Below the pieces are notes generated by a model that ran no database searches, was not told where the DNA came from, and saw nothing but the letters and a program-made list of their open reading frames with translations. DNA of 40,372 nucleotides from a virus. How positions within the stretch are numbered: position 1 is the stretch's first letter; each line of letters begins with the position of its first letter. The DNA is taken from IMG/VR virus record IMGVR_UViG_3300029983_000048, positions 1-40,372 of that record; one strand, given 5' to 3'. This document shows positions 3,938 through 20,823 of the stretch, in pieces. Position numbers and translations under genes: made by a program.

Positions 3938-3957
3938 TTTCAGTCTTTGTTTTTTAT
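3922..3957. terminator. Terminator between converging genes
   Basis: A 13-bp perfect stem (ACAAAGACTGAAA, 3922-3934, pairs with 3938-3950) with a 3-nt loop and a T-run on the plus side. It covers the ends of the methyltransferase and of the converging minus-strand array, so it probably serves both. Confidence 0.85.
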
Positions 3958-5775: not shown

Positions 5776-5784
5776 TAATTTAGA

Positions 5785-6636
5785 TTATTTTTTATTTTCA
5801 TAATTATAATATTTTTTGTTATAAAGTTTATAATCAATATTTTTTTTATTTTTTATATCGTAATTTAGACATTCTTCTAAATTATCAAAAATAATAATTC
5901 TTCTTTGATTTGTTTTTAGTTCTTTTAATGCTTTTGTTCTTCCTCCTAAAATTTCTAATATGAGATTATTTTCTTTATCATAAAAAAACCAATATCTAGC
6001 ATTTGGATGAATTTCAAATTTTTTAGGTTTATAACCTATCATTGATTTTTTTATATTTGATTTGTGCTCTTCTGAAAGTTTTTTGTTTTTACATCTATCA
6101 CTTGTATTTTTTTTACTCATTATGCCATCAGATGTTTCATAGAATTTTTTAAGTGATATGCTTATTTTATTTTTTTGTTCTTCTGTTTTGAAAACTTTAC
6201 CATTTATTGCTTTACTTATTTTTTCACCAACTTCTTTAGCAGTTATATTTTTATACGGTTTCTTTTTACCTTTTCTTTGTTCTGAAAATTTTTTCTTTAT
6301 TTCAATGGCCTTTTCAATGCCATAATATTCTTCATATGTTTTACCTTTTTTAGCTTCAATTTCAACTAATTTTCCACCAGTACCACCTTCAGATAAATTA
6401 TAGCCTATTTTTAAATCTCTAGAATTATAATACTTAATCCAATATTTTTCCTTATCATTTAATTCATCTTTGGTTAAACACTCTTCTAATATTTCTTTAA
6501 TAAAGTTTTGTATACCATGTTTTTTTATAGATAGTGTTAATAAAAGTCCAGAACCTAAATATGTCGGATCATTTGTTGAATTTTGACCTATGTATATTTT
6601 TCCATTTACAAGGTTTGTAGTTTTGTAGATTATCAT
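5785..6636 (-). CDS. GIY-YIG homing endonuclease with NUMOD3 repeats
   Basis: A 283-residue protein. Residues 1-90 form a GIY-YIG nuclease: MIIYKTTNLVNGKIYIGQN supplies the two Tyr-containing strands, KEKYWIKYYNS supplies the conserved Glu helix, and GYNLSEGGTGG ends the domain. NUMOD3-type DNA-binding repeats follow (GEKISKAINGK, SEEHKSNIKKSM). It lacks a KL tail and sits in a gap of the tailed array, consistent with insertion of a selfish gene between two array genes. Confidence 0.9.
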   Translation of the reverse strand: MIIYKTTNLVNGKIYIGQNSTNDPTYLGSGLLLTLSIKKHGIQNFIKEILEECLTKDELNDKEKYWIKYYNSRDLKIGYNLSEGGTGGKLVEIEAKKGKTYEEYYGIEKAIEIKKKFSEQRKGKKKPYKNITAKEVGEKISKAINGKVFKTEEQKNKISISLKKFYETSDGIMSKKNTSDRCKNKKLSEEHKSNIKKSMIGYKPKKFEIHPNARYWFFYDKENNLILEILGGRTKALKELKTNQRRIIIFDNLEECLNYDIKNKKNIDYKLYNKKYYNYENKK

Positions 6637-6672
6637 AAATTTTAACCTCGCACTTTATAAAAAACAATAATA

Positions 6673-6963
6673 TTATAGTATTTTTGTTATTTTACCATAT
6701 ATTTGTTTGGACCACCCATTTATACCACCTTTATTGTTGCCTATTAGAACTCCTTTAATTGGGTCTTTTGCTTTTACTAAGTGTGTGTAAAATGCGGATT
6801 TAACTTTACAATACACTATATCATCAATTTCAACATTTTCCCATGTTGCTGGTGTTATTTCTACTGGTTGCTTTGATTTAATTATTGGTAACATCGAATT
6901 ACCTGGTTCTTTGCTGATAATAGTTTCACCAGCTAAGAGCTTTTCTACTTTAAAATTTTTCAT
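6673..6963 (-). CDS. S24/S26-like small phage protein
   Basis: A 96-residue protein. The start (KVEKLLAGETIISKEPGNSM) places a Ser in the GNSM motif typical of LexA/signal-peptidase-like folds, followed by an IDDIVYCKV strand and the phage-typical end IGNNKGGINGW. The Lys that acts as general base in true S24/S26 peptidases is not evident; YTHLVKAK lies in that place. It may therefore be a non-catalytic relative. Similar short proteins are common in phages, with no established role. No KL tail. Confidence 0.8.
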   Translation of the reverse strand: MKNFKVEKLLAGETIISKEPGNSMLPIIKSKQPVEITPATWENVEIDDIVYCKVKSAFYTHLVKAKDPIKGVLIGNNKGGINGWSKQIYGKITKIL

Positions 6964-6967
6964 TTAT

Positions 6968-7213
6968 TCATTGTTTTTCATCATCTTTGAGCAAAGATAA
7001 TTTTTTTAATTTGTTTTTACGTAAAATTCTTATATTTATTGGAATTAATTCACCATCATATTCAGTGCAAGTCTTATCTGCACACCATAGTGCTGTTCCT
7101 CGTGATCCATCAGTATCTTTACAACGGAGATAAAGATTATGAATATCATCACCACTAATTACTGTATATATATTATTTTCTTTATCTTTTAATTTTAATC
7201 CTTTATAAAACAT
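6968..7213 (-). CDS. Small barrel-like protein with KL tail
   Basis: An 81-residue protein with short beta-type stretches (YKGLKLKDKENNIYTVISG, then LYLRCKD) and two further Cys (WCADKTC). The end RILRKNKLKKLSLLKDDEKQ is a KL tail. It lies 4 nt from the S24-like gene. Function is unknown. Confidence 0.75.
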   Translation of the reverse strand: MFYKGLKLKDKENNIYTVISGDDIHNLYLRCKDTDGSRGTALWCADKTCTEYDGELIPINIRILRKNKLKKLSLLKDDEKQ

Positions 7214-7235
7214 AATCTTATAAATTTAAAAAATG

Positions 7236-7541
7236 TTATTCTTCATTGTCCCATAACATTTTTAATTTCTTGATTTTTTCTGGTCTGGTTGGTCTAACAT
7301 CACCTTTGTAAGTGTAATTAACTTTATAATAATCATTAACTGTACACCATGTCCAAGATGGCTTGCCTTTTATAATTTGTTCAACATCATATGATACATA
7401 AAAATACTCCATATTTTGTTCAAGATGAAATTTGAAATTTGAACTTTCTGTTAATTCTTTTATGAATTCTTCAGTTACTTTTATAAATTTTAAGGAGTTT
7501 TCTATTCCTTCACTAACAAATATTTTATAATAATATTTCAT
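7236..7541 (-). CDS. KL-tailed protein of unknown function
   Basis: A 101-residue protein (MKYYYKIFVSEGIENSLKFI...) with alternating strand and helix character and a Trp-rich stretch (KPSWTWCTVNDYYKV). The C-terminus RPEKIKKLKMLWDNEE is a shortened KL tail. It overlaps the upstream gene by 17 nt. Confidence 0.75.
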   Translation of the reverse strand: MKYYYKIFVSEGIENSLKFIKVTEEFIKELTESSNFKFHLEQNMEYFYVSYDVEQIIKGKPSWTWCTVNDYYKVNYTYKGDVRPTRPEKIKKLKMLWDNEE

Positions 7542-7740
7542 ATATATATAATTTTAATGAAATCCAATGTTTATTTTCCATATCACCTCTAAAATATACA
7601 CCGTCACCTTCATCATCATATATCCAAAAGCAGGTGGTTTCTCTTATAAAATTATCAACTTTATAAATTCTATAATACTTATTATGTGTATAATATTGAT
7701 GGCTTACACCAGTAAAAATTAAAATATCACCTGCTTTCAT
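7525..7740 (-). CDS. Small GD-barrel-like protein
   Basis: A 71-residue protein opening MKAGDILIFTGVSHQYYT, with further beta-type stretches (KYYRIYKVDNFI, TCFWIYDD). It has the same small-barrel plan as the other GD proteins but lacks a recognisable KL tail (end SLKLYIYEILL). One nt separates it from the upstream gene. Confidence 0.75.
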   Translation of the reverse strand: MKAGDILIFTGVSHQYYTHNKYYRIYKVDNFIRETTCFWIYDDEGDGVYFRGDMENKHWISLKLYIYEILL

Positions 7741-7741
7741 T

Positions 7742-8086
7742 TTAATTTCTATATTTGGCTATTTTTTGTAATTTTAATTTTCTAATTTCTTTTGGCGTCA
7801 TAAAAGTGTTAGATAATATACTTTCTGAAAAATCCTCATTACCAATTCTATATAATATAATAATAACATAATCATTATTAAATCTACTAATTGAACATAC
7901 TTTATTATAAATAAATTCAATTTTATATTTTTTACCTTTTTTGTATATTGGAGTTCTAAAAAATTTATTATTAATTTTTTCCATAAAAGATGGTATATTT
8001 TCTTTAGGATGCTCTTTATTAGGATAAATAGCGTCTCTAAAATCATAACAAGTTCTTTTACAAACTAAAAAATCACCTTCTTTCAT
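7742..8086 (-). CDS. GD-barrel-like protein with KL tail
   Basis: A 114-residue protein: MKEGDFLVCKRTCYDF opening, then a typical YKKGKKYKIEFIYN strand and a hydrophobic strand NDYVIIILYRIG, ending in the KL tail KEIRKLKLQKIAKYRN. The opening plus GKxYKI pattern is common in small phage proteins and is shared here with the genes at 15075 and 26147. An overlapping frame within it is a shadow. Confidence 0.8.
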   Translation of the reverse strand: MKEGDFLVCKRTCYDFRDAIYPNKEHPKENIPSFMEKINNKFFRTPIYKKGKKYKIEFIYNKVCSISRFNNDYVIIILYRIGNEDFSESILSNTFMTPKEIRKLKLQKIAKYRN

Positions 8087-8216
8087 TTAATTTATTTAAT
8101 TTATCTTTTCTTAATTTTCTTTTTTCTTTTAATTCCTGCTCTTTATAATAAATTTCATTTTCTTTCATAACCTCAATCCAATATCCTTCATTTTCCATAC
8201 CTAATTCATTTTGCAT
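8073..8216 (-). CDS. Small KL-tailed protein
   Basis: A longer frame exists upstream, but it would run deep into the DUF1848 gene. The ATG at 8216 gives a 47-residue protein that overlaps that gene by only 11 nt, the normal spacing here. The body is helical (GYWIEVMKENEIYYKEQ) and the end is a textbook KL tail (RKLRKDKLNKLNERR). Confidence 0.65.
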   Translation of the reverse strand: MQNELGMENEGYWIEVMKENEIYYKEQELKEKRKLRKDKLNKLNERR

Positions 8217-8973
8217 AGCAATATATACATTTATGTTCACAGGATCTAAATGAGCCAATGTCGGTGCTTTTTGAACAACCACATAATTCTCTTTGAGTTT
8301 TATCTTTTGTATTTGTGATCCATTTTTGTTTACCACAAATTCTTGTAACCAATTCTGGATCAACACATTTATTATGTTCTATTCCTTCAAGATTAAGTCC
8401 TTCAGCACAAGTTCCTAATTTAAGATTCCATTTCTTATTAAATTCTATAAGTTTCTTTGCAATTTTTACTTGAGTATCATTATCAATTTCATTAAATAAA
8501 TTGCCAAGTTTTTTATACGGATCTACAAAACTAAAAACTAATTTTTCTGTGTAATTGTATAACTGGTTTCCAATATTTTCTATTCTTTCAAGAATTTCAT
8601 CTGAGCGTAATTTTTGATTTACTATTATGGGGTCGTGTCTCCATATCAAGCATCTTTTACCTATTCTATCTGATAATTCTTTAAAAGTTTTAATTCTTTC
8701 TTCCAATGATGGGATATTTAATTCATATTCTGGATAATCATTTAATGTGAATTGAAAATAATATTTATATGGTATTTTATCTAAATATTCTATTAAAGGT
8801 CGTGGATTTTTGGTCCAAAATACTATTAATTTTATTTTTTCAAATGATATTTCATAGTCTGTGAAAGAACTACTCATAATAACTTTACCTTCTTTTAATC
8901 TATCAACAAACCATTCTGATTTAAAAGCTGGTATATCCTCCCTTCTACTCGCTGATATTATATATGGTGTCAT
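8206..8973 (-). CDS. DUF1848 family protein
   Basis: A 255-residue protein with the DUF1848 N-terminus (TPYIISASRREDIPAFKSEW) and the characteristic Cys-rich C-terminus (CGCSKSTDIGSF, then CEHKCIYCYAK). The final C-x3-C-x2-C motif resembles an iron-sulfur site of radical SAM type, and the family is thought to be radical-SAM-related, though no reaction is established to my knowledge. It is full length and lacks a KL tail. It overlaps the upstream gene by 29 nt. Confidence 0.85.
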   Translation of the reverse strand: MTPYIISASRREDIPAFKSEWFVDRLKEGKVIMSSSFTDYEISFEKIKLIVFWTKNPRPLIEYLDKIPYKYYFQFTLNDYPEYELNIPSLEERIKTFKELSDRIGKRCLIWRHDPIIVNQKLRSDEILERIENIGNQLYNYTEKLVFSFVDPYKKLGNLFNEIDNDTQVKIAKKLIEFNKKWNLKLGTCAEGLNLEGIEHNKCVDPELVTRICGKQKWITNTKDKTQRELCGCSKSTDIGSFRSCEHKCIYCYAK

Positions 8974-9595
8974 TTAATTCTTTAATTGTTTTTAATTTTA
9001 AAAATCTTATATATGATGGCGTTTCTTGATGCTCATAATATTTCCAAACTTTTTTTAATTGTGTTTCATCTTTAATAAAAGATTCAAAATCATCTGGTGC
9101 AATTTCTTGTTCTATTACATCTATATAAAATGTTTTTGGATAAAATGGTATTTTTTTTATTATTTGACTACTTTTAATTCTTTCTCGTTTTGAATTAAAT
9201 GCAGAGCCAGTAAATGTGTTTCCATTTTGATTTTTCCAAACTATTGCATCACCATAATATGGTTTTCCATCTTTTCCGTTTTTAAAAATTGAATAACAAC
9301 GATTATTTTGATATGATTCATTGGAGGGTGGCGGCATAGTTATTGATAAATCGTCAGTATTCCATTCATCATCAGAGCACATTATTGGCGCTAATGGCTC
9401 AAAATTTGCTAATTTTTTAAACATATTTATTGCATATGGTGCTGAAGAACCAGAATGTCCTTGCTTAGAAAATACTTCTAAAAGTTCTAATACATTTTCT
9501 TGAATCCATTTATCTGGATCATCATCACATTCAGCAATAGGTTTATAACCTAATTTTAAAAATTCTCTTTTTGCGTATTCTATTAAATTACTCAT
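8945..9595 (-). CDS. Conserved phage protein, QGHSG type
   Basis: A 216-residue protein. The N-terminal helix (MSNLIEYAKREFLKLGY) and the motif EVFSKQGHSGSSAPYAINMF, followed by a Cys/Asp/Trp patch (CSDDEWN) and YQNNRCYSIFKNG, mark a protein type I associate with many tailed phages but which has no assigned function. The C-terminus (RFLKLKTIKELNDTIYN) looks like a degenerate KL tail. Start chosen at the first Met. Confidence 0.8.
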   Translation of the reverse strand: MSNLIEYAKREFLKLGYKPIAECDDDPDKWIQENVLELLEVFSKQGHSGSSAPYAINMFKKLANFEPLAPIMCSDDEWNTDDLSITMPPPSNESYQNNRCYSIFKNGKDGKPYYGDAIVWKNQNGNTFTGSAFNSKRERIKSSQIIKKIPFYPKTFYIDVIEQEIAPDDFESFIKDETQLKKVWKYYEHQETPSYIRFLKLKTIKELNDTIYNISE

Positions 9596-9598
9596 ATT

Positions 9599-9632
9599 AA
9601 AATATAATTCTTTTTAAAATATAATTCTTTTT
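9599..9632. repeat. Tandem 17-bp duplication
   Basis: AAAATATAATTCTTTTT occurs twice head to tail (9599-9615, 9616-9632). The repeat spans the stop codon of the gene ending at 9614 and the leader of the next gene, so it looks like a recent slippage event rather than an operator. Confidence 0.7.
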
Positions 9633-9856
9633 TTAATTATTATATCAAAATCATTATGATTATTGAAATTCCATTTTATATTTTTAACTTTTTCTTGTTT
9701 TATTATTAAAATGCTACCTAATTTATTATTTATAAGTTTAGTTGCTATACAATATCCAAAATATCTTAAAATAGGATTAAATAATACTTTTAATAATGAT
9801 CTATGATTTACAATTTTTTTATCTTTATATAAAATACCTAATTTTAATTTATTCAT
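9614..9856 (-). CDS. Small basic protein of unknown function
   Basis: An 80-residue basic protein (MNKLKLGILYKDKKIVNHRS...). The middle has a hydrophobic stretch (PILRYFGYCIATKLINN), and the end IIIKKRIIF has no KL tail. The 17-bp duplication at its 3' end may have altered the original C-terminus. It overlaps the upstream gene by 8 nt. Confidence 0.65.
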   Translation of the reverse strand: MNKLKLGILYKDKKIVNHRSLLKVLFNPILRYFGYCIATKLINNKLGSILIIKQEKVKNIKWNFNNHNDFDIIIKKRIIF

Positions 9857-10148
9857 TTATTTTTGATAATTTTTCTAATTTTTTAAGTCTGCTATATTTT
9901 ATACATTCAAATTTTTCAAATAATTCATTTTCTGAAAGCCAGAACATCAATGCTCCGTTACCTTTTATTTTCTCTATTAGTTTAATTTGCCATGCATGAG
10001 TGCCACTTTTTTCATACCAAACAGGTAAATATTTTGGAATTTTATATTTATGACCTTTATAAAAATAAAATGTCATACCAGTTCCAGGTATAATAAAATC
10101 TTCTTTTACTATTATTATATCATTCTTATTTAATTTAGGATTGCTCAT
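9849..10148 (-). CDS. Barrel-like protein with KL tail
   Basis: A 99-residue protein with a KNDIIIVKEDF opening (an ND variant of the GD opening), then FYFYKGHKYKIPKYL and HAWQIKLIEKIKG strands. It ends in the KL tail KYSRLKKLEKLSKINE. A 4-nt overlap with the upstream gene indicates coupled translation. Confidence 0.75.
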   Translation of the reverse strand: MSNPKLNKNDIIIVKEDFIIPGTGMTFYFYKGHKYKIPKYLPVWYEKSGTHAWQIKLIEKIKGNGALMFWLSENELFEKFECIKYSRLKKLEKLSKINE

Positions 10149-10786
10149 ATATAATTTGACATTTGTATTTTGTTTATTTTTAACATTCTTTTTATTTTTA
10201 ACAAATCTTTTTCATTTATATAATTTGAAAATGAATATTCATCAATATTATCAATAGAAAAAAATAAAAAATATTTATCATTAAATTTTACTACAATATC
10301 ATATAATGAGTTTAGATAAAATCTAGCAAAAAAACTATTTATTTTTTTAATTTTAAATTTGTCACTTAAATATAATGTAGGATCTATTTCTTGATTTTTA
10401 TTTTTTACTTTGTAATCAAATGTCAATTTATCTAATTCTTCTATTATCCAATTTCCTTTTTGTTTTTCAATTTTTATTTTAGATACTTCTTTTTTATTTC
10501 TTAAAAAAATAGCATTGTCATTATCATCAAAATAAATAAAAATATCTTTAACTTTTGAATAACCAATATAACATTTTTTAGTAAAAATAGATAAATTAAT
10601 TTTTTCAGTAAAGTATTTTTTTGGTATTCCTGTTTTTTCTTCAAATTTACTTGATTTTTCAATATATTCTTTAATAAACATTTTGAATTTTTCTAAATCA
10701 AATAAATTTTCATATTTTTTATAAATTTGAAATAAAAATTGTGGATCAAAATCTCCACAATCAAGTAAAGTTGTTAATTCACTCAT
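10145..10786 (-). CDS. Protein of unknown function
   Basis: A 213-residue protein rich in Phe, Lys and Ile. The N-terminal third is helical, the rest alternates strands (KDIFIYFDDNDNAIFLRN, DIVVKFNDKYFLFFSI). No catalytic motif stands out. The end (LLKIKRMLKINKIQM) resembles a diverged KL tail. It overlaps the methyltransferase gene by 8 nt. Confidence 0.75.
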   Translation of the reverse strand: MSELTTLLDCGDFDPQFLFQIYKKYENLFDLEKFKMFIKEYIEKSSKFEEKTGIPKKYFTEKINLSIFTKKCYIGYSKVKDIFIYFDDNDNAIFLRNKKEVSKIKIEKQKGNWIIEELDKLTFDYKVKNKNQEIDPTLYLSDKFKIKKINSFFARFYLNSLYDIVVKFNDKYFLFFSIDNIDEYSFSNYINEKDLLKIKRMLKINKIQMSNYI

Positions 10787-11606
10787 TTTTCAATCTTTCT
10801 TCTAACATTTTTATACAATTTTCATTAATATCAAAAACAATGTAATTTCTATTCAGTTCTTTAGCAGCAATGGCAGTTGTACCTGATCCAGAAAAATAAT
10901 CAACTATTAAATCATTTTCATCTGTAGATGCTAAAATACATCTTTTTACTAAATCTTTTGGTTTTTGAGTATTATGCTTTGTTAAAGTATTATTTGGTGT
11001 CTTTTTTGTTTTCGCATATGATTTAACTTCATGCATTGACCAAAATGGTACTGTTAAATCAATCCAAAGATTAGATGGATGTGTTAGTCTAATTTTTTCA
11101 CCATCTCTCTCAAACCAATCCTTAGGCTCACCATTTTCATCTCTATAAGGTGCGATTACTTTTTTTTCTGTTTTGATTCTATCTACATAAAACTTATATT
11201 GTTTTTCATTTTTAACTGCGAACCAAACATCTTCGTGCATTGATTTAAAATTTCTATTTGCGCCTCTACCTTTATCTCTTTTCCAAGTGATTCTATTTAT
11301 TATTGTAAAACCACAATTTTCTAATATTTCCTGAATTTTACCTGAATGTTGCCAAACCGTGCAAACATAAATAGAGCCTGTATTTTTTAATTGCTTATAA
11401 GATAATGATAACCAATCTTTTGTCCAATTATAATAATCTTCTTTATTATTCCATTGCTTATCCCAGTCATATCTATCACCTTTTTCTAAATCAAGATTTT
11501 TTGATCTATTACCAGAAATAAAATATGGCGGATCACAAAAGAAAAAATCAACAGAATTTTCTTTTATATAAATATTTGATTCATTATAATTTAGATTGTA
11601 GTGCAT
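10779..11606 (-). CDS. Site-specific DNA methyltransferase, DPPY type
   Basis: A 275-residue N6_N4_Mtase-type enzyme. The catalytic DPPY is at residues 25-28 (VDFFFCDPPYFISGN) and the AdoMet-binding motif near the C-terminus is DYFSGSGTTAIAAKELNRNY. This is again the order of beta-class enzymes. It is distinct from the enzyme at 3200, so the phage carries at least two specificities. No restriction endonuclease is adjacent. It lies inside the KL-tailed array but has no tail. Confidence 0.9.
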   Translation of the reverse strand: MHYNLNYNESNIYIKENSVDFFFCDPPYFISGNRSKNLDLEKGDRYDWDKQWNNKEDYYNWTKDWLSLSYKQLKNTGSIYVCTVWQHSGKIQEILENCGFTIINRITWKRDKGRGANRNFKSMHEDVWFAVKNEKQYKFYVDRIKTEKKVIAPYRDENGEPKDWFERDGEKIRLTHPSNLWIDLTVPFWSMHEVKSYAKTKKTPNNTLTKHNTQKPKDLVKRCILASTDENDLIVDYFSGSGTTAIAAKELNRNYIVFDINENCIKMLEERLKNE

Positions 11607-11904
11607 TTAATTTTTCTAATTTTTGTTTTCTAAATTTGTGTTTAGCACTGTTTAAGTACTCACATACTTCATGTAATTCAAATTGTCTCAAATATTTAAT
11701 ATATTTAGTTATTTTTTCAAATTTTAATTCTTTATTTTTTAAATCTTGATCTATTAAGGTGATAAAATTATCTGTTGCCCATTCTAGAGACGTTCTATTA
11801 TCTGGAGTTTTATCAGTCACCTTATTTTTATTTTTAATTAGTATCATATATGCTTTTTTAAAATTGTCATTTTCAAATAACTCTATAAATTGCTCAGTTG
11901 TCAT
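11584..11904 (-). CDS. KL-tailed helical protein
   Basis: A 106-residue, mainly helical protein (TEQFIELFENDNFKKAYMIL...). The arrangement of short helices, including LRQFELHEVCEYLNSAKHKF, suggests a small helical bundle. The end HKFRKQKLEKLNALQSKL is a clear KL tail. It overlaps the methyltransferase gene by 23 nt. Confidence 0.75.
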   Translation of the reverse strand: MTTEQFIELFENDNFKKAYMILIKNKNKVTDKTPDNRTSLEWATDNFITLIDQDLKNKELKFEKITKYIKYLRQFELHEVCEYLNSAKHKFRKQKLEKLNALQSKL

Positions 11905-12175
11905 AATTTAATTTATTAAGTTTTTCTTTTCTAATTTCTTTTATTGGCGCATAATTAAATGATACACTATTAAATTTGCCATTAATTCCATTTAATTCAA
12001 TTTTTGTGTGCCAACTATGAACTTCAACATTTGATATTTCATATATAGTTTCAGTGTTTAATATTCCATTCGGATCACTATTTGAACCCCAGCACACCTG
12101 ATCTATTGTTGATCCTATAAATTTTATTCTATCTCCAATTTCAAATTCCATACTATTATCCTTGCTGATTTTCAT
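11894..12175 (-). CDS. GD-barrel-like protein with KL tail
   Basis: A 93-residue protein; the body begins MEFEIGDRIKFIGSTI, so the start could be the second Met (12151) rather than the first (12175). The first overlaps the upstream gene by 20 nt, as others here do. Beta-type stretches follow (TIYEISNVEVHSW, KIELNGINGKF). The end is the KL tail KEIRKEKLNKLNYDN. Confidence 0.75.
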   Translation of the reverse strand: MKISKDNSMEFEIGDRIKFIGSTIDQVCWGSNSDPNGILNTETIYEISNVEVHSWHTKIELNGINGKFNSVSFNYAPIKEIRKEKLNKLNYDN

Positions 12176-12317
12176 TTAATTTATTTAATTTTTCTTTTCG
12201 TTCTGTTCTTAGTCTTTCAGATTTTACTAATGAAATACTTGTCCAATAAAATTTTTCTTTTCCATCCCACATTAAGCATTGTCCAGACTTTACTATTTCT
12301 CCAAAATTTGTTTCCAT
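12156..12317 (-). CDS. Short KL-tailed protein, first gene of the minus array
   Basis: A 53-residue frame beginning METNFGEIVKSGQCLMWDGK and ending in the KL tail RTERKEKLNKLNENQQG. It overlaps the next gene by 20 nt, in the style of the array. It is the promoter-proximal gene of the minus-strand block; I found no convincing minus-strand promoter upstream. Confidence 0.7.
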   Translation of the reverse strand: METNFGEIVKSGQCLMWDGKEKFYWTSISLVKSERLRTERKEKLNKLNENQQG

Positions 12318-12378
12318 AATTTTTATATGAATTTGTTTCTATAAAGTTTTAATGATTTTTTTATTGATATTTTTTATT

Positions 12379-12386
12379 TATATTTG
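12379..12386 (+). promoter_or_regulatory. Possible Bacteroidota-type -7 promoter element
   Basis: TATATTTG matches TAnnTTTG, the -7 element of the Bacteroidota housekeeping sigma factor. It lies 41 nt before the first gene of the plus-strand array, in the gap between divergent gene blocks. Chance matches are common at this base composition. Confidence 0.45.
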
Positions 12387-12426
12387 GTATTAAATATGAA
12401 ATTATGCAGTATAAAAAAATTAAATA

Positions 12427-12711
12427 ATGATTACACACCAAACACCTGATAGAAATCTTCTTTATATTGGTAAATCAAATAAAAGATTTACTCACAATAA
12501 AATATATAATTATTGGAGTTTATCTGAGTCTAAAGATAGATTTCATATATCAGTTTTTTACAATGATAAGCAATTAATGACTTTCAGATATTTTGATTAT
12601 TTTAATAAAAAATTTAAATTTATTACAGAGAATGAATATAATCAATTAATTATAAAATCAAATAGAAAATTAAAACTTAAAAAAATATGTCGGTTCAAAA
12701 ACAATTTATAA
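12427..12711 (+). CDS. Small KL-tailed protein, first gene of the plus array
   Basis: A 94-residue protein (MITHQTPDRNLLYIGKSNKR...) with beta-type stretches (RFHISVFYNDKQLMTFRYF). The end SNRKLKLKKICRFKNNL is a KL tail. It overlaps the next gene by 25 nt and follows a possible promoter. Function is unknown. Confidence 0.75.
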   Translation: MITHQTPDRNLLYIGKSNKRFTHNKIYNYWSLSESKDRFHISVFYNDKQLMTFRYFDYFNKKFKFITENEYNQLIIKSNRKLKLKKICRFKNNL

Positions 12712-13412
12712 TGACTTGGGTTTTAATATTTAGTGTTATACTTGTATTTTTTGTTATTAAGTATATAGTTGAAAAGCTAATAAAATTAGGAAGAAAAAAT
12801 ATAATTGTTGTGGAAAAAAATAATTTGTCATTTTTTGAGGAATATGATTATTCTTATAATTATTTTTCTGAAAAAAGAATGCGACCTCAATATTTACATA
12901 AAATTCTTGATAGTTTTAAAACTAAGACAAATGTAGATGGTCTGGTTACTATTGAATCTAAATTTAATAATATTCATTATGCTATTTTTGATTTAGATTC
13001 TGGTGATAATTTAGTTTTATTTAGACATTTATATCAAGATACACCTTATGCATTATTTTCTAGTAGTGCAGATCATTATTGGGGTATAATAGATTTACCA
13101 TTTAATAATATTAAAGATATTTTTTATGATACGAATTGGAAAGTATGTAATGATCAAAATTATGTGTCTTTTTCTAGAAGATCAGAACTTCTATTATTGA
13201 GAGGAGTATATGAAACTGAAGACAGAAAACCGAAATTACATTCAACTAAAGGAATTTTTTCAAAAAATTTTCAACTTTTTATAGATAAATTGTGTATATA
13301 TTATAACAACGAGGGATTAGAATTTTCAGTATTAAGATTCAAAGATCCAAAAATGTTGATTAAATTTAATAGAAGAAGAAAATTGCAACAATTAAAAGAT
13401 ATAGAAAAATGA
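12687..13412 (+). CDS. Membrane-anchored protein with KL tail
   Basis: A 241-residue protein. Residues about 8-27 form one transmembrane segment (FIMTWVLIFSVILVFFVIKY), then a basic stretch and a soluble domain of about 190 residues rich in Tyr, Phe and Asp. The soluble part is probably cytoplasmic by the positive-inside rule (basic residues just after the segment). It ends in a KL tail (KFNRRRKLQQLKDIEK). No catalytic motif seen. Confidence 0.75.
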   Translation: MSVQKQFIMTWVLIFSVILVFFVIKYIVEKLIKLGRKNIIVVEKNNLSFFEEYDYSYNYFSEKRMRPQYLHKILDSFKTKTNVDGLVTIESKFNNIHYAIFDLDSGDNLVLFRHLYQDTPYALFSSSADHYWGIIDLPFNNIKDIFYDTNWKVCNDQNYVSFSRRSELLLLRGVYETEDRKPKLHSTKGIFSKNFQLFIDKLCIYYNNEGLEFSVLRFKDPKMLIKFNRRRKLQQLKDIEK

Positions 13413-13684
13413 AAATATCAGAATTTAAAAATTCAATTGATTGGAAAATGTTTGGAAAAATTATGTCTATAATTTCTTTTATTATATTATTTTCAATATT
13501 ACAACCAAATAGTATTTTAAATTTGGCACAAGGAATTTCGTTTATATTAATAATATCTGTATCACTTTTGAGTAGAGTATATATTGAATTAAAATTAAGA
13601 GAAACCTCAAAAATTCTCACTATTAAAGAATTAAGAATTAAAAAATTAAAAAAATTAAATAGATGGAAATTCCTAAAAAATTAG
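13409..13684 (+). CDS. Two-helix membrane protein with KL tail
   Basis: A 91-residue protein with two predicted transmembrane segments (MSIISFIILFSIL and ISFILIISVSLLSRVYI) and a basic cytoplasmic C-terminus ending in the KL tail KELRIKKLKKLNRWKFLKN. It overlaps the upstream gene by 4 nt. Together with 12687, 16243 and 22237 it shows that the tail also occurs on or near membrane proteins. Confidence 0.75.
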   Translation: MKISEFKNSIDWKMFGKIMSIISFIILFSILQPNSILNLAQGISFILIISVSLLSRVYIELKLRETSKILTIKELRIKKLKKLNRWKFLKN

Positions 13685-14034
13685 AAGAGTGCTATTTAGT
13701 ATTAGAAAACATTGAAGACCTTACTACTTGGTTAAACAACTCAGAAAATTCAGCAACTGCCAATGCTCATCATTCAATAGGACAATGGATTAGAAATAAT
13801 TGGGGGTTATGGAAAGAAGAAGGTGAATTGTATAAATGGTTTAAGGAAAATGAAATAAATCATCCTGATGATATGAGTAGTATAATATTAACTTCATTTT
13901 ATCGTTATAAGAAAAACCAAGATATTAGATTAGTGGAGCAATTTGAAAATATAATTGATTTTTATTTAAATGATAAAGAAAAATTATTGAGAAAAAGAAA
14001 GAAAAAATTAAATAAAATAGAAGATGTTAAATAA
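13663..14034 (+). CDS. DUF6794-like phage protein with KL tail
   Basis: A 123-residue protein. The core ANAHHSIGQWIRNNWGLW followed by EINHPDDMSSIILTSFYRY is the signature of the DUF6794-like proteins of phages and bacteria, of unknown function. The end LLRKRKKKLNKIEDVK is a KL tail that other family members, as I recall them, do not have. This would make it a good case of the tail being added to an existing domain. Confidence 0.8.
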   Translation: MEIPKKLEECYLVLENIEDLTTWLNNSENSATANAHHSIGQWIRNNWGLWKEEGELYKWFKENEINHPDDMSSIILTSFYRYKKNQDIRLVEQFENIIDFYLNDKEKLLRKRKKKLNKIEDVK

Positions 14035-14272
14035 GATAAATCTAGATTTTGAGTCGTTATATCAAACTGTTATAAGAGATTTTACAAAAGATCAAAAATT
14101 TATGGCAGAATTAAAAAGAATAGAGACTGGATGTCCAAGTGGACCACAAGGAATGCCTGGTATTCCTGGTATGACTAAAGCTGAAATTAGAGCATTAGAA
14201 ATAAAAAGACTTAAAGAAGAACGAATAAAAAAACTTGAAAAAATAAATAAATTAAATGAAAAAAACGATTAA
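14024..14272 (+). CDS. Small protein with collagen-like triplets and KL tail
   Basis: An 82-residue protein. A helical N-terminal half is followed by CPSGPQGMPGIPGMT, four Gly-x-y triplets of collagen type, then a basic helix with a double KL tail (RIKKLEKINKLNEKND). Four triplets are too few for a stable triple helix on their own. Overlaps: 11 nt upstream, 17 nt downstream. Function is unknown. Confidence 0.75.
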   Translation: MLNKINLDFESLYQTVIRDFTKDQKFMAELKRIETGCPSGPQGMPGIPGMTKAEIRALEIKRLKEERIKKLEKINKLNEKND

Positions 14273-14768
14273 TTATTGTGGCAACTGTCCATTCTCATAT
14301 TCAGATTATGATGATTTTGCAATAGGCTATTCAACTGCTGACATTTGTACTTTATCAAGATTTTTAAAATTAAAAGATGATTGTATTTTAGTTAGTAATG
14401 GTGACGAAGAATTAAAAACACCTAATTGGTGCCCTCTTAAAACTGAAGAATTTACATTTGGTTATAAAGAATTTTCTACTAAAAGACAGCAAGAAATAGA
14501 ATCTACTAAAGAAGAATTAGAGATTTTACAAAATTGTGTTGAAAAATATGAAGATTATGATAATCCAATTGCAATAGAAATGAGTAACAATATACAAAAT
14601 TTATATAACAGATTAGGTGAACTTCAAAGTAATGAAAATGAAGAAGATTCTGAAAATTATTTTCAAACTGAATTAAATGAAAATATAAATGAAATAAAAG
14701 ATCAATTATTTAAATTGGAAAATGCTGGAAATAAATTACAAGATTTTTTTAATAATTTGGATAAATGA
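14256..14768 (+). CDS. Zinc-binding-like protein with coiled coil
   Basis: A 170-residue protein. The N-terminal part has CGNCPF, then a distant Cys and WCPL, a likely single zinc site seen in small phage proteins. Residues about 80-165 are strongly charged helix and probably coiled coil (REL/ELQ-type stretches, EINEIKDQLFKLENAG). It has no KL tail. It shares ATGA with a possible start of the next gene. Confidence 0.75.
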   Translation: MKKTINYCGNCPFSYSDYDDFAIGYSTADICTLSRFLKLKDDCILVSNGDEELKTPNWCPLKTEEFTFGYKEFSTKRQQEIESTKEELEILQNCVEKYEDYDNPIAIEMSNNIQNLYNRLGELQSNENEEDSENYFQTELNENINEIKDQLFKLENAGNKLQDFFNNLDK

Positions 14769-15075
14769 TAACTTATACAATAGAGCAGCAAATTGTGTTG
14801 GAATTGATAGAATATTATTATTAGATAAAAGAAAAGAATTACTATATTCTGCGGCTATTGCTTTATTCAATCAAATATGGAATTGTAAATTTGAAATTAT
14901 AAATAGTACATATCACAGTTTTAAATTTAAAAAAATAGAGTCGTTATTTATTAGAAATTTTACTTATAATCTATTTGAGCTTATTGATAATCAACTTTAC
15001 TATTTTGACACTGAATATGAACGTAAAGTATTTTTAAGAAAATATAAATTAAAACAATTAGAAAATATAAATTAA
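14722..15075 (+). CDS. KL-tailed protein with doubtful start, possible frameshift
   Basis: The main frame has no Met after 14722, and that start would overlap the upstream gene by 47 nt, more than usual. In the -1-related frame an ATG at 14765 sits in the usual ATGA overlap and encodes MITYTIEQQIVLELIEYYY before a TAG at 14822. Joining the two at the ATTATTATTAG run would give a natural protein continuing LDKRKELLYSAAIALFNQIW and ending in the KL tail VFLRKYKLKQLENIN. The choice is a frameshift mutation, a sequencing error or recoding. Confidence 0.6.
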   Translation: MLEINYKIFLIIWINDNLYNRAANCVGIDRILLLDKRKELLYSAAIALFNQIWNCKFEIINSTYHSFKFKKIESLFIRNFTYNLFELIDNQLYYFDTEYERKVFLRKYKLKQLENIN

Positions 15076-15347
15076 TGAAAAAATTAAGTTATAAAGATTT
15101 CAAAATTGGTCAAAAAGTTACTTGTGCTAAAACTTGTCATGATGGTAATAATGATGATTTTTATGAACAGCATTTGACTGTTGGTAAACAATATAAAATT
15201 GAGGATCTTGATTTTCATTTTCCAGAAAAAATGTGTATTCGTAGTGATAATAATAAAGTTAGTATGTTTATGCCTATTGAGTTTTTTGATAATATTAAAT
15301 ATATTCGGAAATTGAAATTAGAAAAAATTAAAAATGCTCAAAAGTGA
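15075..15347 (+). CDS. GD-barrel-like protein with KL tail
   Basis: A 90-residue protein with a FKIGQKVTCAKTCHDGNN opening, then VGKQYKIEDLD, matching the plan of the genes at 7742 and 26147. It ends in the KL tail KYIRKLKLEKIKNAQK. One-base overlap with the upstream stop (TAATG). Probably a small beta barrel of unknown function. Confidence 0.8.
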   Translation: MKKLSYKDFKIGQKVTCAKTCHDGNNDDFYEQHLTVGKQYKIEDLDFHFPEKMCIRSDNNKVSMFMPIEFFDNIKYIRKLKLEKIKNAQK

Positions 15348-15741
15348 TAGATATATAATAACACCATTTTTAAATAATTCTTTTGATTCTTCTATGAAAG
15401 AATTAATCAAATTTGTTGTTTCTGAATATAAATTAATATATGAATTATTTGATTTTGGTAATATTACATATAGTCTCTGTTGTATAGATAAAACTACAGT
15501 TGGCTCAAATTTTTCAAACATGAAAACACCTGATATAATTTATATTAGTGTTAATTTTATGAACGAAGGAAGTTGGACTAATTCAGGAGGGTTAATATAT
15601 TGCACAATAATATTAAATTTTCGCACCAAAATTGAAGTACGATGGGATACTTCACCTCGTGGGTATAATTATGAATATTTTAATATTACAAAACTTAGAA
15701 GATTAAAACTTGAAAAATTGAATGAAATAAATGAAATATAA
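15334..15741 (+). CDS. KL-tailed protein of unknown function
   Basis: A 135-residue protein with a helical N-terminal half and a strand-rich C-terminal half (GGLIYCTIILNFRTKIEVRW). The tail TKLRRLKLEKLNEINEI uses CTT, TTA and TTG for its leucines, a direct example of synonymous variation in the tail. The opposite-strand frame here is a shadow. Confidence 0.75.
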   Translation: MLKSDRYIITPFLNNSFDSSMKELIKFVVSEYKLIYELFDFGNITYSLCCIDKTTVGSNFSNMKTPDIIYISVNFMNEGSWTNSGGLIYCTIILNFRTKIEVRWDTSPRGYNYEYFNITKLRRLKLEKLNEINEI

Positions 15742-15982
15742 AATATATTGTATTAAAAATCGTGATAAACGTGATAAACCATGGAAATTTAAAAAAGGTA
15801 AGTTTTATACATCACATTACGATCCATATATTGAGCCTGATTTGAGGACATATAATATTTATCATGATGATTGTGGTTATGCAGTAATGCATATGCCTCA
15901 TGAAACATATATAAAATATTTTTTAAATATTAAAGAATTAAGAAAATTAAAATTAAATAAATTAAATGAAAGTTCTTTGTAA
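15731..15982 (+). CDS. Small KL-tailed protein
   Basis: An 83-residue Tyr/Lys/His-rich protein (MKYKIYCIKNRDKRDKPWKF...) with a strand-rich body (FKKGKFYTSHYDPYI), ending in the KL tail KELRKLKLNKLNESSL. It overlaps both neighbours by 11 and 17 nt. Function is unknown. Confidence 0.75.
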   Translation: MKYKIYCIKNRDKRDKPWKFKKGKFYTSHYDPYIEPDLRTYNIYHDDCGYAVMHMPHETYIKYFLNIKELRKLKLNKLNESSL

Positions 15983-16259
15983 AAAAACATATGATCTTGA
16001 TGGCGTGATAATTTTTATAAAAAATAATTGGTATCATATATTATCTAAATATGACACATATGATAAAAATAGTATAGTTGCCAGTGTTTTTGTTGAATCT
16101 AAGAAAAAATATGGCACTAGATTTTATAAATCTAATTATAAAAATAATTATAATTATGAAAATTTATCATTTGAAGAATATTTTTATTCAGCGCAAGAAT
16201 TAAGATATAAAAAATTAAAAAAATTAAAAAAATTAAAATTAAATGAACAAAATAACTAA
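15966..16259 (+). CDS. Barrel-like protein with extended KL tail
   Basis: A 97-residue protein opening MKVLCKKTYDLDGVIIFIKN, similar to the CKxTY element of other array proteins. The tail is longer than usual, with three KL steps (QELRYKKLKKLKKLKLNEQNN split over 16195-16256), as if the LKK unit had been repeated by slippage. Confidence 0.75.
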   Translation: MKVLCKKTYDLDGVIIFIKNNWYHILSKYDTYDKNSIVASVFVESKKKYGTRFYKSNYKNNYNYENLSFEEYFYSAQELRYKKLKKLKKLKLNEQNN

Positions 16260-16410
16260 TTGGATAAGATATTTAATAGGTATATTAATAGGCATGATAG
16301 GTGAATATTTATATAGGTCTGAATTTTATACATCGGCATTTACAGTTTTAATTTGTCTTGTATGGCTTATGTTAATTGATATCACAGACAATATTGGTAA
16401 TAAAAAATAA
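16243..16410 (+). CDS. Small two-helix membrane protein
   Basis: A 55-residue frame that starts inside the tail of the preceding gene. Two hydrophobic segments are visible (IRYLIGILIGMIGEYLY and FTVLICLVWLMLIDI). No KL tail. It is the last gene of the plus array before dnaK. Confidence 0.65.
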   Translation: MNKITNWIRYLIGILIGMIGEYLYRSEFYTSAFTVLICLVWLMLIDITDNIGNKK

Positions 16411-16541
16411 ACAAAACTGACAAAATGACATATAAAATATCGTGAAAATAAACGATAAAGTGTATTTATTGTGTTTTAAGACGATAAATAAAAATGGCAC
16501 AAAAATTGAAATAAAATAAAATAAAATAAAAAAGTAAAATT
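16411..16541 (+). promoter_or_regulatory. dnaK leader region with ACGATA repeats
   Basis: This gap holds TATCGT (16438-16443) facing ACGATA (16452-16457), a second ACGATA at 16481, and an AAAATA-type repeat run just before the start codon. No CIRCE heat-shock operator and no TAnnTTTG match was seen. It may hold the dnaK promoter, but no element is certain. Confidence 0.3.
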
Positions 16542-18407
16542 ATGGGAAAAATTATTGGAATAGACTTAGGATCGTATAATTCCGCTGTTTCTATTGTAGA
16601 GGGTGGACAGACTGTTATTATACCAAATTCAGAAGGATCGTTAACTACGCCTTCTATTGTTTCATTTGATAAAAAAACAGGTGAAATTAAAGTTGGAGAA
16701 AGTGCTAAACGCCAAGCAGCATTAAATCCAAAAAATACAATTTTTAATATTAAAAGATTAATGGGTCGTACATATGATGAAGTTAAACATCTTAAGCGTC
16801 CTTATGAAATTGTTAACAATAATGGTAAAGCTGCAGTTAAAGTAAATGACAGAATTTATTCGCCAGAAGAAATATCAGCTATGATTCTTCAAAAAATGAA
16901 AAAATCAGCTGAAGAATATTTAGGCCAAACTGTTGAAAAGGCAATTATTACAACTCCGGCTTATTTTAATAGTGATGAGAGAAAATCCACTCAAATTGCA
17001 GGAGAAATTGCTGGTTTTAAAGTTGAAAGAATTATTTCTGAGCCAACAGCTGCAGCATTAAATATTAAAGATAAAAAAGGTAAATTATATATGGTTGTTG
17101 ATTCTGGAGGTTGTACATCAGATTTTTCAGTAATTGATATAGAGGATGGATTATTCGAAGTAATATCAACAGATGGAAATTTAGATTTAGGTGGTAATTT
17201 AATAGATGATGCATTAGTAAATTATATTGCAGATGATTTTTTAAAGGATACTGGCACAGATTTGAGAAAAGATCCAATGGCACATCAAAGATTAATCGAA
17301 GCATCTGAAAAAGCTAAAATAGAATTATCAACTACTACACAAACAGAAATAAATTTACCTTATATTACAGTTGTAGATAATATTCCAAAACATTTGGTAA
17401 AAACTATAAATCAAGCAAAATTTAATCAATTGATTCAATTTTATATTGATGATACTATAAAATTAATAAAATCATCTATGAAAAAAGGTGATAAAAAAGT
17501 TACAGATATAGATAATATCGTTTTGGTTGGTGGTAGTACACGCATACCATATTTGGTAGAAAATATTGAAAAATATTTTGGTAAAAAATGTGATAAAAGT
17601 TTGAATCCAGATACTAGTATCGCATCTGGTGCTGCAATACAAGGGTCAGTAATTACAGGTGAAAATTCTGATATTTTATTATTAGATGTTTGTGCATTAA
17701 ATTTTTATATTGAAACTATGGGCGGAATTGCAACAAAAATGATAGAATCTAATACCACAATACCGACCAGCAAAACACAAATATTTAGTACTGCTGTAGA
17801 TTCACAACCAAGTGTTCAAATTAATGTGGCTACAGGTGAAAGAGAATTATTTAAAAATAATAAATTTTTAGGTACATTTAGTCTTGATGTTATGCCTGCG
17901 AGACGTGGTGTTCCACAAATTGAAGTAGAATTTAATATATCAGCAGATTCTATCTTAACTGTAAAGGCAACAGATAAAGGAACAGGAAAAGCAAATAATA
18001 TTAGAATTGAAGGAAGTTCAGCATTAACTAAAGATGAAATTGAAAGAATGAAAATGGAAGCAAAAGAAAACGCCGAATCAGATAGAATAGAAAAAGAAAA
18101 GATTGATAAATTAAATCAAGCAGATTCTTTAATTTTCCAAACAGAAAAACAAATTGAAGAATTTGGTGATAAATTAACTGATACCGATAAATCTGAATTA
18201 AATTCTGCTGTTGAAAAACTAAAAGAATCTCATAAAACACAAAACTTAATAGATATACAAAAGTATTCAAAAAATTTAAATGAGGTTTGGAATAAAATTT
18301 CCGCTAAGTTATATGAGAATAAAGAACCAAAAAATGAAACTCACGAAGCTAAGACTGATGATAAGTATGGTGAAGCTACAGATGTGGATTTTGAGGAAGT
18401 TAAATGA
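16542..18407 (+). CDS. dnaK: Hsp70 chaperone DnaK
   Basis: A 621-residue DnaK with ATPase domain (1-375), linker-type DILLLDVCAL, substrate-binding domain (ETMGGIATKMIESNTTIPTS, GERELFKNNKFLGTFSLD), helical lid and a typical EEVK-type end (DVDFEEVK). Conserved residues include the catalytic Lys in NIKRLMGR (about 71), Glu in SEPTAAA (about 167) and GGSTRIP. Two phosphate-binding motifs deviate: GTTNS is GSYNS (11-14) and DLGGGT is DSGGCT (187-192). It folds proteins with ATP and normally works with DnaJ and GrpE, which are not in this window. Phage-encoded Hsp70 is rare. It is monocistronic with its own terminator. Confidence 0.97.
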   Translation: MGKIIGIDLGSYNSAVSIVEGGQTVIIPNSEGSLTTPSIVSFDKKTGEIKVGESAKRQAALNPKNTIFNIKRLMGRTYDEVKHLKRPYEIVNNNGKAAVKVNDRIYSPEEISAMILQKMKKSAEEYLGQTVEKAIITTPAYFNSDERKSTQIAGEIAGFKVERIISEPTAAALNIKDKKGKLYMVVDSGGCTSDFSVIDIEDGLFEVISTDGNLDLGGNLIDDALVNYIADDFLKDTGTDLRKDPMAHQRLIEASEKAKIELSTTTQTEINLPYITVVDNIPKHLVKTINQAKFNQLIQFYIDDTIKLIKSSMKKGDKKVTDIDNIVLVGGSTRIPYLVENIEKYFGKKCDKSLNPDTSIASGAAIQGSVITGENSDILLLDVCALNFYIETMGGIATKMIESNTTIPTSKTQIFSTAVDSQPSVQINVATGERELFKNNKFLGTFSLDVMPARRGVPQIEVEFNISADSILTVKATDKGTGKANNIRIEGSSALTKDEIERMKMEAKENAESDRIEKEKIDKLNQADSLIFQTEKQIEEFGDKLTDTDKSELNSAVEKLKESHKTQNLIDIQKYSKNLNEVWNKISAKLYENKEPKNETHEAKTDDKYGEATDVDFEEVK

Positions 18408-18690
18408 AAAAAAGCCAGAAATTAATTCTGGCTTTTTTTATTGTGTGATTTTCAAATAATTCATTTAGTATATTTAATCTAAATGCTGCTTTGTATGCGC
18501 ATTTATTATTTTTAAAAAAATCACTTTTATTTATATATTTATCAGATTCTTTTTTAATATTTTCTTTTATCCAATATCCTTTTTTAACCTGTGTGACGGA
18601 ATACCCTTCATTTGAATGATAAGATAATTTGTCCAGTTTTTTAATTAATAAACTGGACAAATATATATATTTGCAGAAAATATATTTCAA
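18400..18690 (-). CDS. Probable fragment of a homing-endonuclease-type gene
   Basis: A 96-residue frame. The core KKGYWIKENIKKESDKYINK, then FFKNNKCAYKAAFRLNILNE, matches the short AYxxAxxxxxLDE-type DNA-binding repeat often found with phage HNH endonucleases. The first 25 codons run through the inverted repeat at 18628-18661 and look unnatural, so the original N-terminus may have been lost when the adjacent foreign DNA arrived. It also runs through the dnaK terminator. Probably a remnant. Confidence 0.4.
   Translation of the reverse strand: MKYIFCKYIYLSSLLIKKLDKLSYHSNEGYSVTQVKKGYWIKENIKKESDKYINKSDFFKNNKCAYKAAFRLNILNELFENHTIKKARINFWLFFI
18407..18440 (+). terminator. Terminator after dnaK
   Basis: GCCAGAA (18414-18420) pairs with TTCTGGC (18426-18432); the flanking A and T runs extend the stem. 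A T-run follows. It ends the dnaK transcript and may also act on the converging minus-strand frame. Confidence 0.9.
18628..18661. promoter_or_regulatory. Inverted repeat overlapping a promoter, possible operator
   Basis: TTTGTCCAGTTT (18628-18639) is the perfect complement of AAACTGGACAAA (18650-18661), with a 10-nt AT spacer. It ends 4 nt before a TATATTTG element and 28 nt before the AbiEi/DUF6088-like start. AbiEi-type antitoxins repress their own promoters at inverted repeats, so this may be the operator that came with the gene. No T-run follows, which argues against a terminator. Confidence 0.5.
18666..18673 (+). promoter_or_regulatory. Possible Bacteroidota-type -7 promoter element
   Basis: TATATTTG matches TAnnTTTG and lies 16 nt before the ATG of the truncated AbiEi/DUF6088-like gene, directly behind the inverted repeat. 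The arrangement operator, -7, short leader, gene is plausible for an autoregulated gene. Confidence 0.45.
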
Positions 18691-18827
18691 TGAAAGTAAC
18701 TGAATACATCGAATTTAAGATTGATAGACTTCCAAAGGGGTATGTATTCACCTATGATGATTTTATTACAGAGGTAAGCAAGAAGGAAGCAGTTATTAAA
18801 GCATTAAACCGCATGGTAGCCGGATAA
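18690..18827 (+). pseudogene. N-terminal fragment of a DUF6088/AbiEi-like antitoxin gene
   Basis: 45 codons encode MKVTEYIEFKIDRLPKGYVF, then TYDDFITEVSKKEAVIKALN and RMVAG, the winged-helix start of the DUF6088 / AbiEi-type antitoxins of Bacteroidota. The full proteins are several times longer. The reading ends at a TAA just where the sequence changes into helicase-coding DNA, so the gene is cut at about 18820. It probably entered from a host or mobile element. Confidence 0.7.
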
Positions 18828-19351
18828 CGGATTATTACCGGGATTTCGACAGGCACAAGGGCACGCAGTTTGTCTTTTCCGACCTCGGAACGTACCATCC
18901 CGGTCATTGGAATGTGTACAGCGAAATAAAACGTAAGTTGGTTGAAGACCACGGTATTCCGGCACACGAGGTGCGTTTTATACAGGAAGCCAAAACTGAA
19001 AACGCCCGTAAAACGATGATTGCCGGGATGAATGATGGGAAAATACGTGTACTTTTTGGTAGTACCGAAATGCTTGGAACCGGCATTAATGCCCAGAAAC
19101 GGTGTGTTGCTATTCATCACCTCGATTGCCCATGGCGACCGTCCGACCTGGAACAGCGTGATGGTCGCGGTATCCGGAAAGGTAACGAGGTTGCCAAACT
19201 CTATGCAAACAACAAAGTCTATGTTATCCTGTATGCGGTCGAAAAATCGCTCGATGCCTACAAATTTGGGTTACTGCATAACAAGCAACTCTTTATCCGG
19301 CAACTCAAAACCAATTCGCTTGGTTGTCGCCACATTAATAAAACCAACTAA
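18828..19351 (+). pseudogene. Internal fragment of a SNF2-type helicase/methylase gene
   Basis: The frame reads DYYRDFDRHKGTQFVFSDLG, then NVYSEIKRKLVEDHGIPAHE, VLFGSTEMLGTGINAQKR, HHLDCPWRPSDLEQRDGRG and EKSLDAYKFGLLHNKQLFI. This is the C-terminal helicase lobe (motifs V and VI) of the very large SNF2-helicase/N6-methylase proteins on Bacteroidota conjugative elements. About 170 of well over 1,000 residues remain, with no start. Base composition differs sharply: 32 of 60 bases are G or C at 19081-19140 against 7 of 60 at 19441-19500. The last residues after about 19325 are already phage-like DNA. Confidence 0.8.
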
Positions 19352-19472
19352 AAGGAAAAGAATTCTTAAAGATGCAACAGAGGCTAATGGTATAAATATG
19401 AGTATGCTAAAAAATTCACCAACATTTATCGAAATATTGGATAATTTTAATAAAATTATGAATTTTTTATGA
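19334..19472 (+). pseudogene. 3' remnant of a disrupted phage gene
   Basis: Right after the GC-rich piece, an AT-rich frame reads KPTKRKRILKDATEANGINM and ends in NFNKIMNFL. It has no own start near the junction apart from an ATG at 19399, and overlaps the next gene by 4 nt as an intact operon gene would. It is probably the end of a phage gene whose front was replaced by the insertion. Confidence 0.45.
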
Positions 19473-19696
19473 AATTAATAAGTCAAACAATTATACAAGA
19501 TAATATTGATATCAAATCTATTAAGTTGGAATCAGTAGGAATTATGAGACTTTATTCAACATATAAGGGAAAATATTCAGAATATTTTAAAAGATATGAA
19601 TATCAAAAACTTCCAGGTGATAAAAAATCGTCTATAGAAAAATGTAAATCAATATTGGATATATTAAATAAAATATCAAGAAATCAAACCTCTTAA
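19469..19696 (+). CDS. Small protein of unknown function
   Basis: A 75-residue Lys/Ile/Ser-rich protein (MKLISQTIIQDNIDIKSIKL...) with a Tyr-rich centre (YSTYKGKYSEYFKRYEY). The start overlaps the preceding remnant by ATGA. No KL tail. It ends at a terminator. No family recognised. Confidence 0.65.
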   Translation: MKLISQTIIQDNIDIKSIKLESVGIMRLYSTYKGKYSEYFKRYEYQKLPGDKKSSIEKCKSILDILNKISRNQTS

Positions 19697-19712
19697 TTGA
19701 GGTTTTTTTTAT
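19686..19712 (+). terminator. Rho-independent terminator
   Basis: AAACCTC (19686-19692) pairs with GAGGTTT (19699-19705) around a 6-nt loop, followed by a T-run. The stem overlaps the last codons of the gene at 19469. Confidence 0.85.
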
Positions 19713-19747
19713 TTTAAACAAATTGTATTCGAATTAATATATAAAAT

Positions 19748-20044
19748 ATGTCGTCACACTGGAATTATAGAATATTAGCAAAAAGAACTCCTGGTGAAAT
19801 TCAATATGGTTTATATGAAGTTCATTATGAGAAGGATATTCCTATTGCTTGTACTGAAAATAATATTGCACCTGTAACATTTAGTAGTGATATTGAAGAT
19901 CCAATTGAATCTTTAATATGGAAGATAGATGCTATGAAATTAGCTTGCTCAAAAAAAATATTAGATTATGATAAATTTCCACAAGAATATTTACCATATT
20001 ATAGGAAAAAGAAATTATTAGCTATTGAAGAACTTATTAAATAA
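19748..20044 (+). CDS. Conserved phage-type protein
   Basis: A 98-residue protein: SSHWNYRILAKRTPGEIQYG, then LYEVHYEKD, IAPVTF and a final helix. The WNYRxxxK...GLYEVYY-type pattern is one I associate with small phage proteins of unknown function. The end (YYRKKKLLAIEELIK) is a weak KL-tail variant. Confidence 0.8.
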   Translation: MSSHWNYRILAKRTPGEIQYGLYEVHYEKDIPIACTENNIAPVTFSSDIEDPIESLIWKIDAMKLACSKKILDYDKFPQEYLPYYRKKKLLAIEELIK

Positions 20045-20316: not shown

Positions 20317-20823
20317 ATGGCAAAAAGTAAGGTGTTGGAACGGTTATTGAAAGAATTGACTCCAGAAAAATTGGAGAAAATGAAGCAAAAACGTCTTGAA
20401 GAAAAAAATAAATTGACAACCGAATACCAATTTGGATATTATGTTGGTGAAAATATTGTTAATCGCTATCTTCCTACATTGAGTGTTGAATCAGGAACAA
20501 GAACTCAAATTGAAGTTTCTGAAGAAGATTCAAATGAATATAATAGGATTGAAAAGGAATGGTCCAATAAGTATCAAAACAACAAATCTTCTGATGTTGA
20601 GTGGAATGATTATCAGAAATATAGAGAAAATTTAAATAAAAAATATCTTCCAAATCCTTTAATTTGTCATATAAGTCCATTAAATATAGAAGAATTTAAA
20701 AAAGGTCTAATTTGGTCATTGTATGATTCAGACCATTGCAGCTATAATCTTGATCCAGATAAAATTAAGATTTATGATGATGAAAATCTTTACTTTACAA
20801 TTATTGAATTTGAATTAAATTAA
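20317..20823 (+). CDS. Charged protein of unknown function
   Basis: A 168-residue protein with a basic helical start (SKVLERLLKELTPEKLEKMK) and an acidic second half with several Trp and Tyr. No motif recognised and no KL tail. It is the first gene after a TATCTTTG promoter, with a leader of about 10 nt. Confidence 0.8.
   Translation: MAKSKVLERLLKELTPEKLEKMKQKRLEEKNKLTTEYQFGYYVGENIVNRYLPTLSVESGTRTQIEVSEEDSNEYNRIEKEWSNKYQNNKSSDVEWNDYQKYRENLNKKYLPNPLICHISPLNIEEFKKGLIWSLYDSDHCSYNLDPDKIKIYDDENLYFTIIEFELN

Follow-up and report, generated by a model that had tools for sequence, protein, structure and literature searches.

An AT-rich phage of Bacteroidota carries, at about 18621-19330, a foreign segment of about 710 bases that consists of two unrelated, broken pieces of mobile-element genes lying end to end. 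The window analyzed here is the complete IMG/VR record, 40,372 bases in length, and represents a fragment of the phage. Because a near-identical sister phage lacks the insert, the segment is most likely a real and recent recombination scar. Judging from sequence comparison, this scar probably arose through an illegitimate, microhomology-type joining event that took in fragments of host DNA and deleted phage DNA. Illegitimate recombination joints are an already known kind of event in phages, and the scar described herein would be a further instance. It offers an unusually clear snapshot of the random uptake of bacterial DNA by a phage, with two donor scraps, defined edges, a near-identical allele that lacks the scraps, and a homing-endonuclease remnant still on site.

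Two gene fragments from bacterial mobile elements

The first piece derives from an AbiEi-like (DUF6088) antitoxin gene (Table 1). Translation of positions 18690-18824 gives MKVTEYIEFKIDRLPKGYVFTYDDFITEVSKKEAVIKALNRMVAG, followed by a stop. This 45-residue peptide shares 69% identity with a protein annotated as DUF6088 on the Runella plasmid pSP2_1, where an AbiEii toxin gene is next downstream, and 77% with the 241-aa DUF6088 protein of MAG nzgw134; judged by Pfam alone, the match is weak (E 0.022). Homology to the antitoxin stops at 18817-18823 in several Bacteroidota genomes, and the fragment ends short of the full wHTH (before the wing) and of the C-terminal domain. The foreign DNA begins at 18621-18626, ahead of the coding region, because the operator/promoter region was captured too. 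The inverted repeat at this location is also present upstream of DUF6088 genes in two related loci (L174 and L175), and AbiEi represses its own promoter via inverted repeats (PMC3985639). The proposal that nzgw134 represents a unique donor type is weakened by the genome G693, whose match to the antitoxin piece is slightly closer.

The second piece is 86.5% identical in nucleotides (18819-19329) to the gene for a 1812-aa methylase/SNF2 protein (L005) and 84.9% identical to a second relative (L006) with the same end points, and its identity to the best relative at the protein level is 92%. It corresponds to about codons 1360-1530 of the 1812 in L005, whose gene sits after a DUF3945/DUF4099 gene. 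Differences between the piece and its relative are distributed 11/3/55 by codon position, and there is no internal stop. Given this preponderance of third-position differences and the uninterrupted frame, the divergence appears to have arisen in a selected, working donor gene, and the capture would be recent. The G+C content is 47.7% across 18820-19330 and 22-24% in the flanking phage DNA, and the composition edges coincide with the homology edges at the pieces.

Beyond the helicase/phage joint at about 19330, composition is phage-like again. The frame at 19332-19472 matches the middle of an RNase_T/DnaQ exonuclease domain and includes neither of its ends. No member of the RNase_T family was found in the closest phage relatives, and 19331-19660 may be either native phage DNA or a third scrap. 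A weak exonuclease match in one genome (G018, locus L176) was dropped, since by inspection it is not an exonuclease frame. Viral searches using the exonuclease fragment and the ORF at 20317-20823 as queries found no relatives.

The earlier note on this DNA had described a truncated AbiEi/DUF6088-like N-terminus abutting a truncated internal piece of a SNF2-helicase/methylase gene, with an abrupt change in composition and AT-rich phage coding that resumes mid-gene. These descriptions are borne out, and the resuming gene is the exonuclease fragment. The region it outlined also stands, with its limits now redrawn at 18621-18626, 18817-18823, and about 19330. Additions to that description are the recognition of the left flank as the C-terminal end of a GIY-YIG homing-endonuclease-type gene and the capture of the AbiEi operator/promoter region.

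Table 1. Features of the scar and its surroundings (window coordinates).
Feature	Position	Strand	Evidence or remark
Phage dnaK (HSP70), conserved left neighbour	16542-18407	+	PF00012 E 2.5e-191
C-terminal remnant of GIY-YIG homing-endonuclease-type gene (WTKE repeats), cut by scar	18403-18620	-	phrog_20046 E 6.6e-6
Foreign piece 1: AbiEi-like (DUF6088) antitoxin gene, operator/promoter region plus codons 1-45	18621-~18820	+	80% nt identity to L175/L181 from 18626
Inverted repeat ATTTGTCCAGTTTTTTAA/TTAATAAACTGGACAAAT, putative AbiEi operator	18627-18662		arms 94% complementary
Truncated antitoxin ORF, 45 codons	18690-18827	+	stop 18825-18827 created by joint
Foreign piece 2: Helicase_C stretch from inside an N6-methylase/SNF2-helicase gene	18819-19330	+	PF00271 E 2.2e-9
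DnaQ/RNase_T-type exonuclease frame fragment	19331-19472	+	PF00929 positions 37-82 of 164, E 1.1e-5; phrog_192 E 1.8e-4
Segment absent from sister contig L094/L198	18621-19660		125 bp endonuclease-gene repeat there instead
orf75, no assigned function	19469-19696	+	last 36 bases and following terminator kept in sister contig
orf98 (phrog_21321), conserved right neighbour	19748-20044	+	collinear with dnaK in L100

The slot between dnaK and orf98

A search with DnaK identified the sister contig IMGVR_UViG_3300030943_000220 (L094; L198 when taken whole). Over window positions 1-18620, the alignment of the two shows 6 substitutions and 10 gap bases (99.9% identity); dnaK identity is 100% in this contig and 73-76% in the relatives L095-L102. 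The sister rejoins the window at 19661, with 55 bp identical to 19661-19715, and then the contig ends. The right-hand adjacency in the sister therefore depends on a contig end, as only these 55 bp follow the rejoining, and 55 bp is a common assembler k-mer length. Both the 125-bp repeat in the sister and window positions 18403-18620 are part of a minus-strand WTKE-repeat gene. This contig provides the comparison with sister phages lacking the insert that the earlier note had recommended. Two further features emerged from aligning these contigs: a 9-base indel (AAATTAAAA) at 16230-16238, and off-diagonal matches at 1093-1496 that reflect direct repeats, now diverged, with a spacing of about 174 bases.

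The WTKE repeats at 18403-18620 match three of the relatives (L101, L102, and L095). Directly after dnaK, L095 and L102 carry an intact minus-strand ORF in which a GIY-YIG nuclease domain lies between WTKE-type repeats. This domain is recognized in L102 by Pfam (PF01541 E 3e-5) and in L095 by inspection; with L102, a whole-protein Pfam search misses the nuclease domain and the cut-out domain passes. The two proteins (L102 7900-9198 and L095 7915-9063, both on the minus strand) belong to phrog_20046, which has no assigned function, and resemble GIY-YIG nucleases flanked by WTKE-type repeats. A more distant phage, L100, carries neither the endonuclease gene nor the insert, and its dnaK and orf98 are adjacent and collinear. 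Because L095 and L102 keep the gene and L100 lacks it, the space between dnaK and orf98 can be regarded as a variable slot for a homing-endonuclease-type gene. By these comparisons, the scar appears to sit in a decayed homing-endonuclease locus.

In addition to dnaK, the phage genome encodes methylases as well as ParB-like and radical-SAM genes, the latter including a protein at 31634-32851 (plus strand; phrog_7293, E 7e-62). The dnaK/HSP70 gene is complete, and such genes are common to many large IMG/VR contigs of up to about 600 kb. A GIY-YIG protein is encoded at 5785-6636 and a NUMOD3-bearing homing-endonuclease-like protein (phrog_314) at 2016-2759, both on the minus strand, so this phage has several genes of the kind. 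The protein encoded at 8945-9595 (minus strand) strongly matches Tad3, an inhibitor of type I Thoeris (PF25185 E 1.5e-32), and its gene is likely an anti-defence gene. A DUF1848 protein is encoded at 8206-8973 (minus strand; E 1.1e-81). A megablast search of window positions 1-25000 against named phages gave no match.

Origin of the joints

Judged from relatives of the donors, the joints exhibit little or no homology. The antitoxin/helicase joint at 18817-18823 shares at most about 5 bases, a length estimated from relatives because the true donor was not found, with best donor-type matches of 86% for the helicase and 79-80% for the antitoxin. When so few bases are shared, illegitimate end joining or template switching would be expected, and not homologous or site-specific recombination. 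Transposition was rejected because no terminal inverted repeats or target duplication were found at the insert ends and no transposase or recombinase was found in the insert.

An assembly or library chimera, wherein bacterial fragments were wrongly joined into a phage contig, would be compatible with the absence of the segment from the sister contig. It would also fit the outcome of an IMG/VR search with 34-39-mers from the right flank and from the joint, none of which turned up in another contig. However, one contig holds three joints with few shared bases each, unlike k-mer assembly errors, and the internal joint overlaps are shorter than an assembler overlap. Moreover, the insert lies precisely in the slot that varies among relatives, and both flanks are of the same phage type and collinear in L100, which argues against a contig made by fusing two different phages. 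These observations, and the 99.9% identical sister that joins the flanks without the insert, make the assembly join that the earlier note had offered as one of its two readings unlikely. Its other reading, acquisition of mobile-element DNA followed by deletion, gains support.

It seems equally improbable that the phage made a single acquisition of a pre-rearranged bacterial element whose pieces had been joined before entry and were trimmed later. Two Bacteroidota genomes (G001 and G693) contain both genes, so one host could supply both, but in each genome the pieces reside on separate contigs rather than side by side in one element. Joined antitoxin and helicase pieces were found in none of the genomes, plasmids, or phages searched. 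Likewise, no single match extended across both pieces in 395 + 393 genomes (~790), in agreement with the earlier suggestion that such a joining is not expected in one source.

Very unlikely is functional cargo, wherein the captured promoter and operator drive a useful short peptide or helicase fragment, or the operator lures away the AbiEi antitoxin of the host: the inverted repeat of the operator and the rest of the upstream region have been well preserved, but the antitoxin ORF stops before its full wHTH and C-terminal domain, the helicase frame has no start codon at the joint and covers a small part of the motor, the exonuclease piece lacks large parts of its domain, and the segment is kept in no other phage found. 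With AbiEi from S. agalactiae, no truncation mutant autoregulated, and antitoxicity lay in the C-terminal domain (PMC3985639). Thus, the scar is probably functionless.

Proposed history and comparison with known systems

For the favored reading, illegitimate joining with loss of phage DNA, we infer that a break was the trigger and that host DNA fragments were the source. The break may have occurred in the slot after dnaK, where relatives hold a free-standing GIY-YIG gene. The phage would have lost most of the endonuclease gene and the start of an exonuclease-like gene, and the gap would have been filled by two unlinked Bacteroidota mobile-element scraps, namely an antitoxin start with its operator and an internal helicase piece. 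These scraps could have been joined as the double-strand break was closed, either by illegitimate end joining or by template switching. Because the sister keeps the end of orf75 and the terminator, the simplest history might involve an ancestor that had orf75 together with the endonuclease and exonuclease genes, each allele being the product of its own deletion.

The scar points to a Bacteroidota host in which an AbiE system is present along with a mobile element of the methylase/helicase kind. We speculate, with considerable reservation, that homing-endonuclease loci might be break-prone landing pads that capture unlinked, degraded host DNA as end-joining filler, such that scars record host mobile-element genes.

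The likeness of the first piece to AbiE type IV toxin-antitoxin systems lies in the N-terminal 45 residues and the upstream inverted-repeat operator, which is putative here. In contrast, the antitoxin of AbiE systems is a full-length protein comprising a wHTH and a C-terminal domain, whereas the scar ORF stops after 45 codons compared to 241 aa in the relative, and the AbiEii nucleotidyltransferase toxin that should follow downstream is replaced by a helicase fragment. Similarly, what is common to the Bacteroidota mobile-element N6-methylase/SNF2-helicases found beside DUF3945/DUF4099 genes is an internal Helicase_C segment, with up to 92% amino acid identity. In the full gene, a single long ORF encodes both an N6 methylase and the entire SNF2 motor, whereas the scar has the Helicase_C part only, amounting to ~170 of ~1,800 codons with no start codon.

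Phage genome mosaicism includes illegitimate-recombination joints (PMC2327257), and illegitimate double-strand-break repair in phage T4 leads to microhomology joints and extensive nucleolytic loss (PMC2988022). The scar resembles such T4 repair at homing sites in that little sequence is shared at the joints, DNA is missing next to a homing-endonuclease locus, and the site lies between conserved genes. It differs from the T4 events in that the break is presumed and in that two unlinked bacterial gene fragments stand in tandem at the site.
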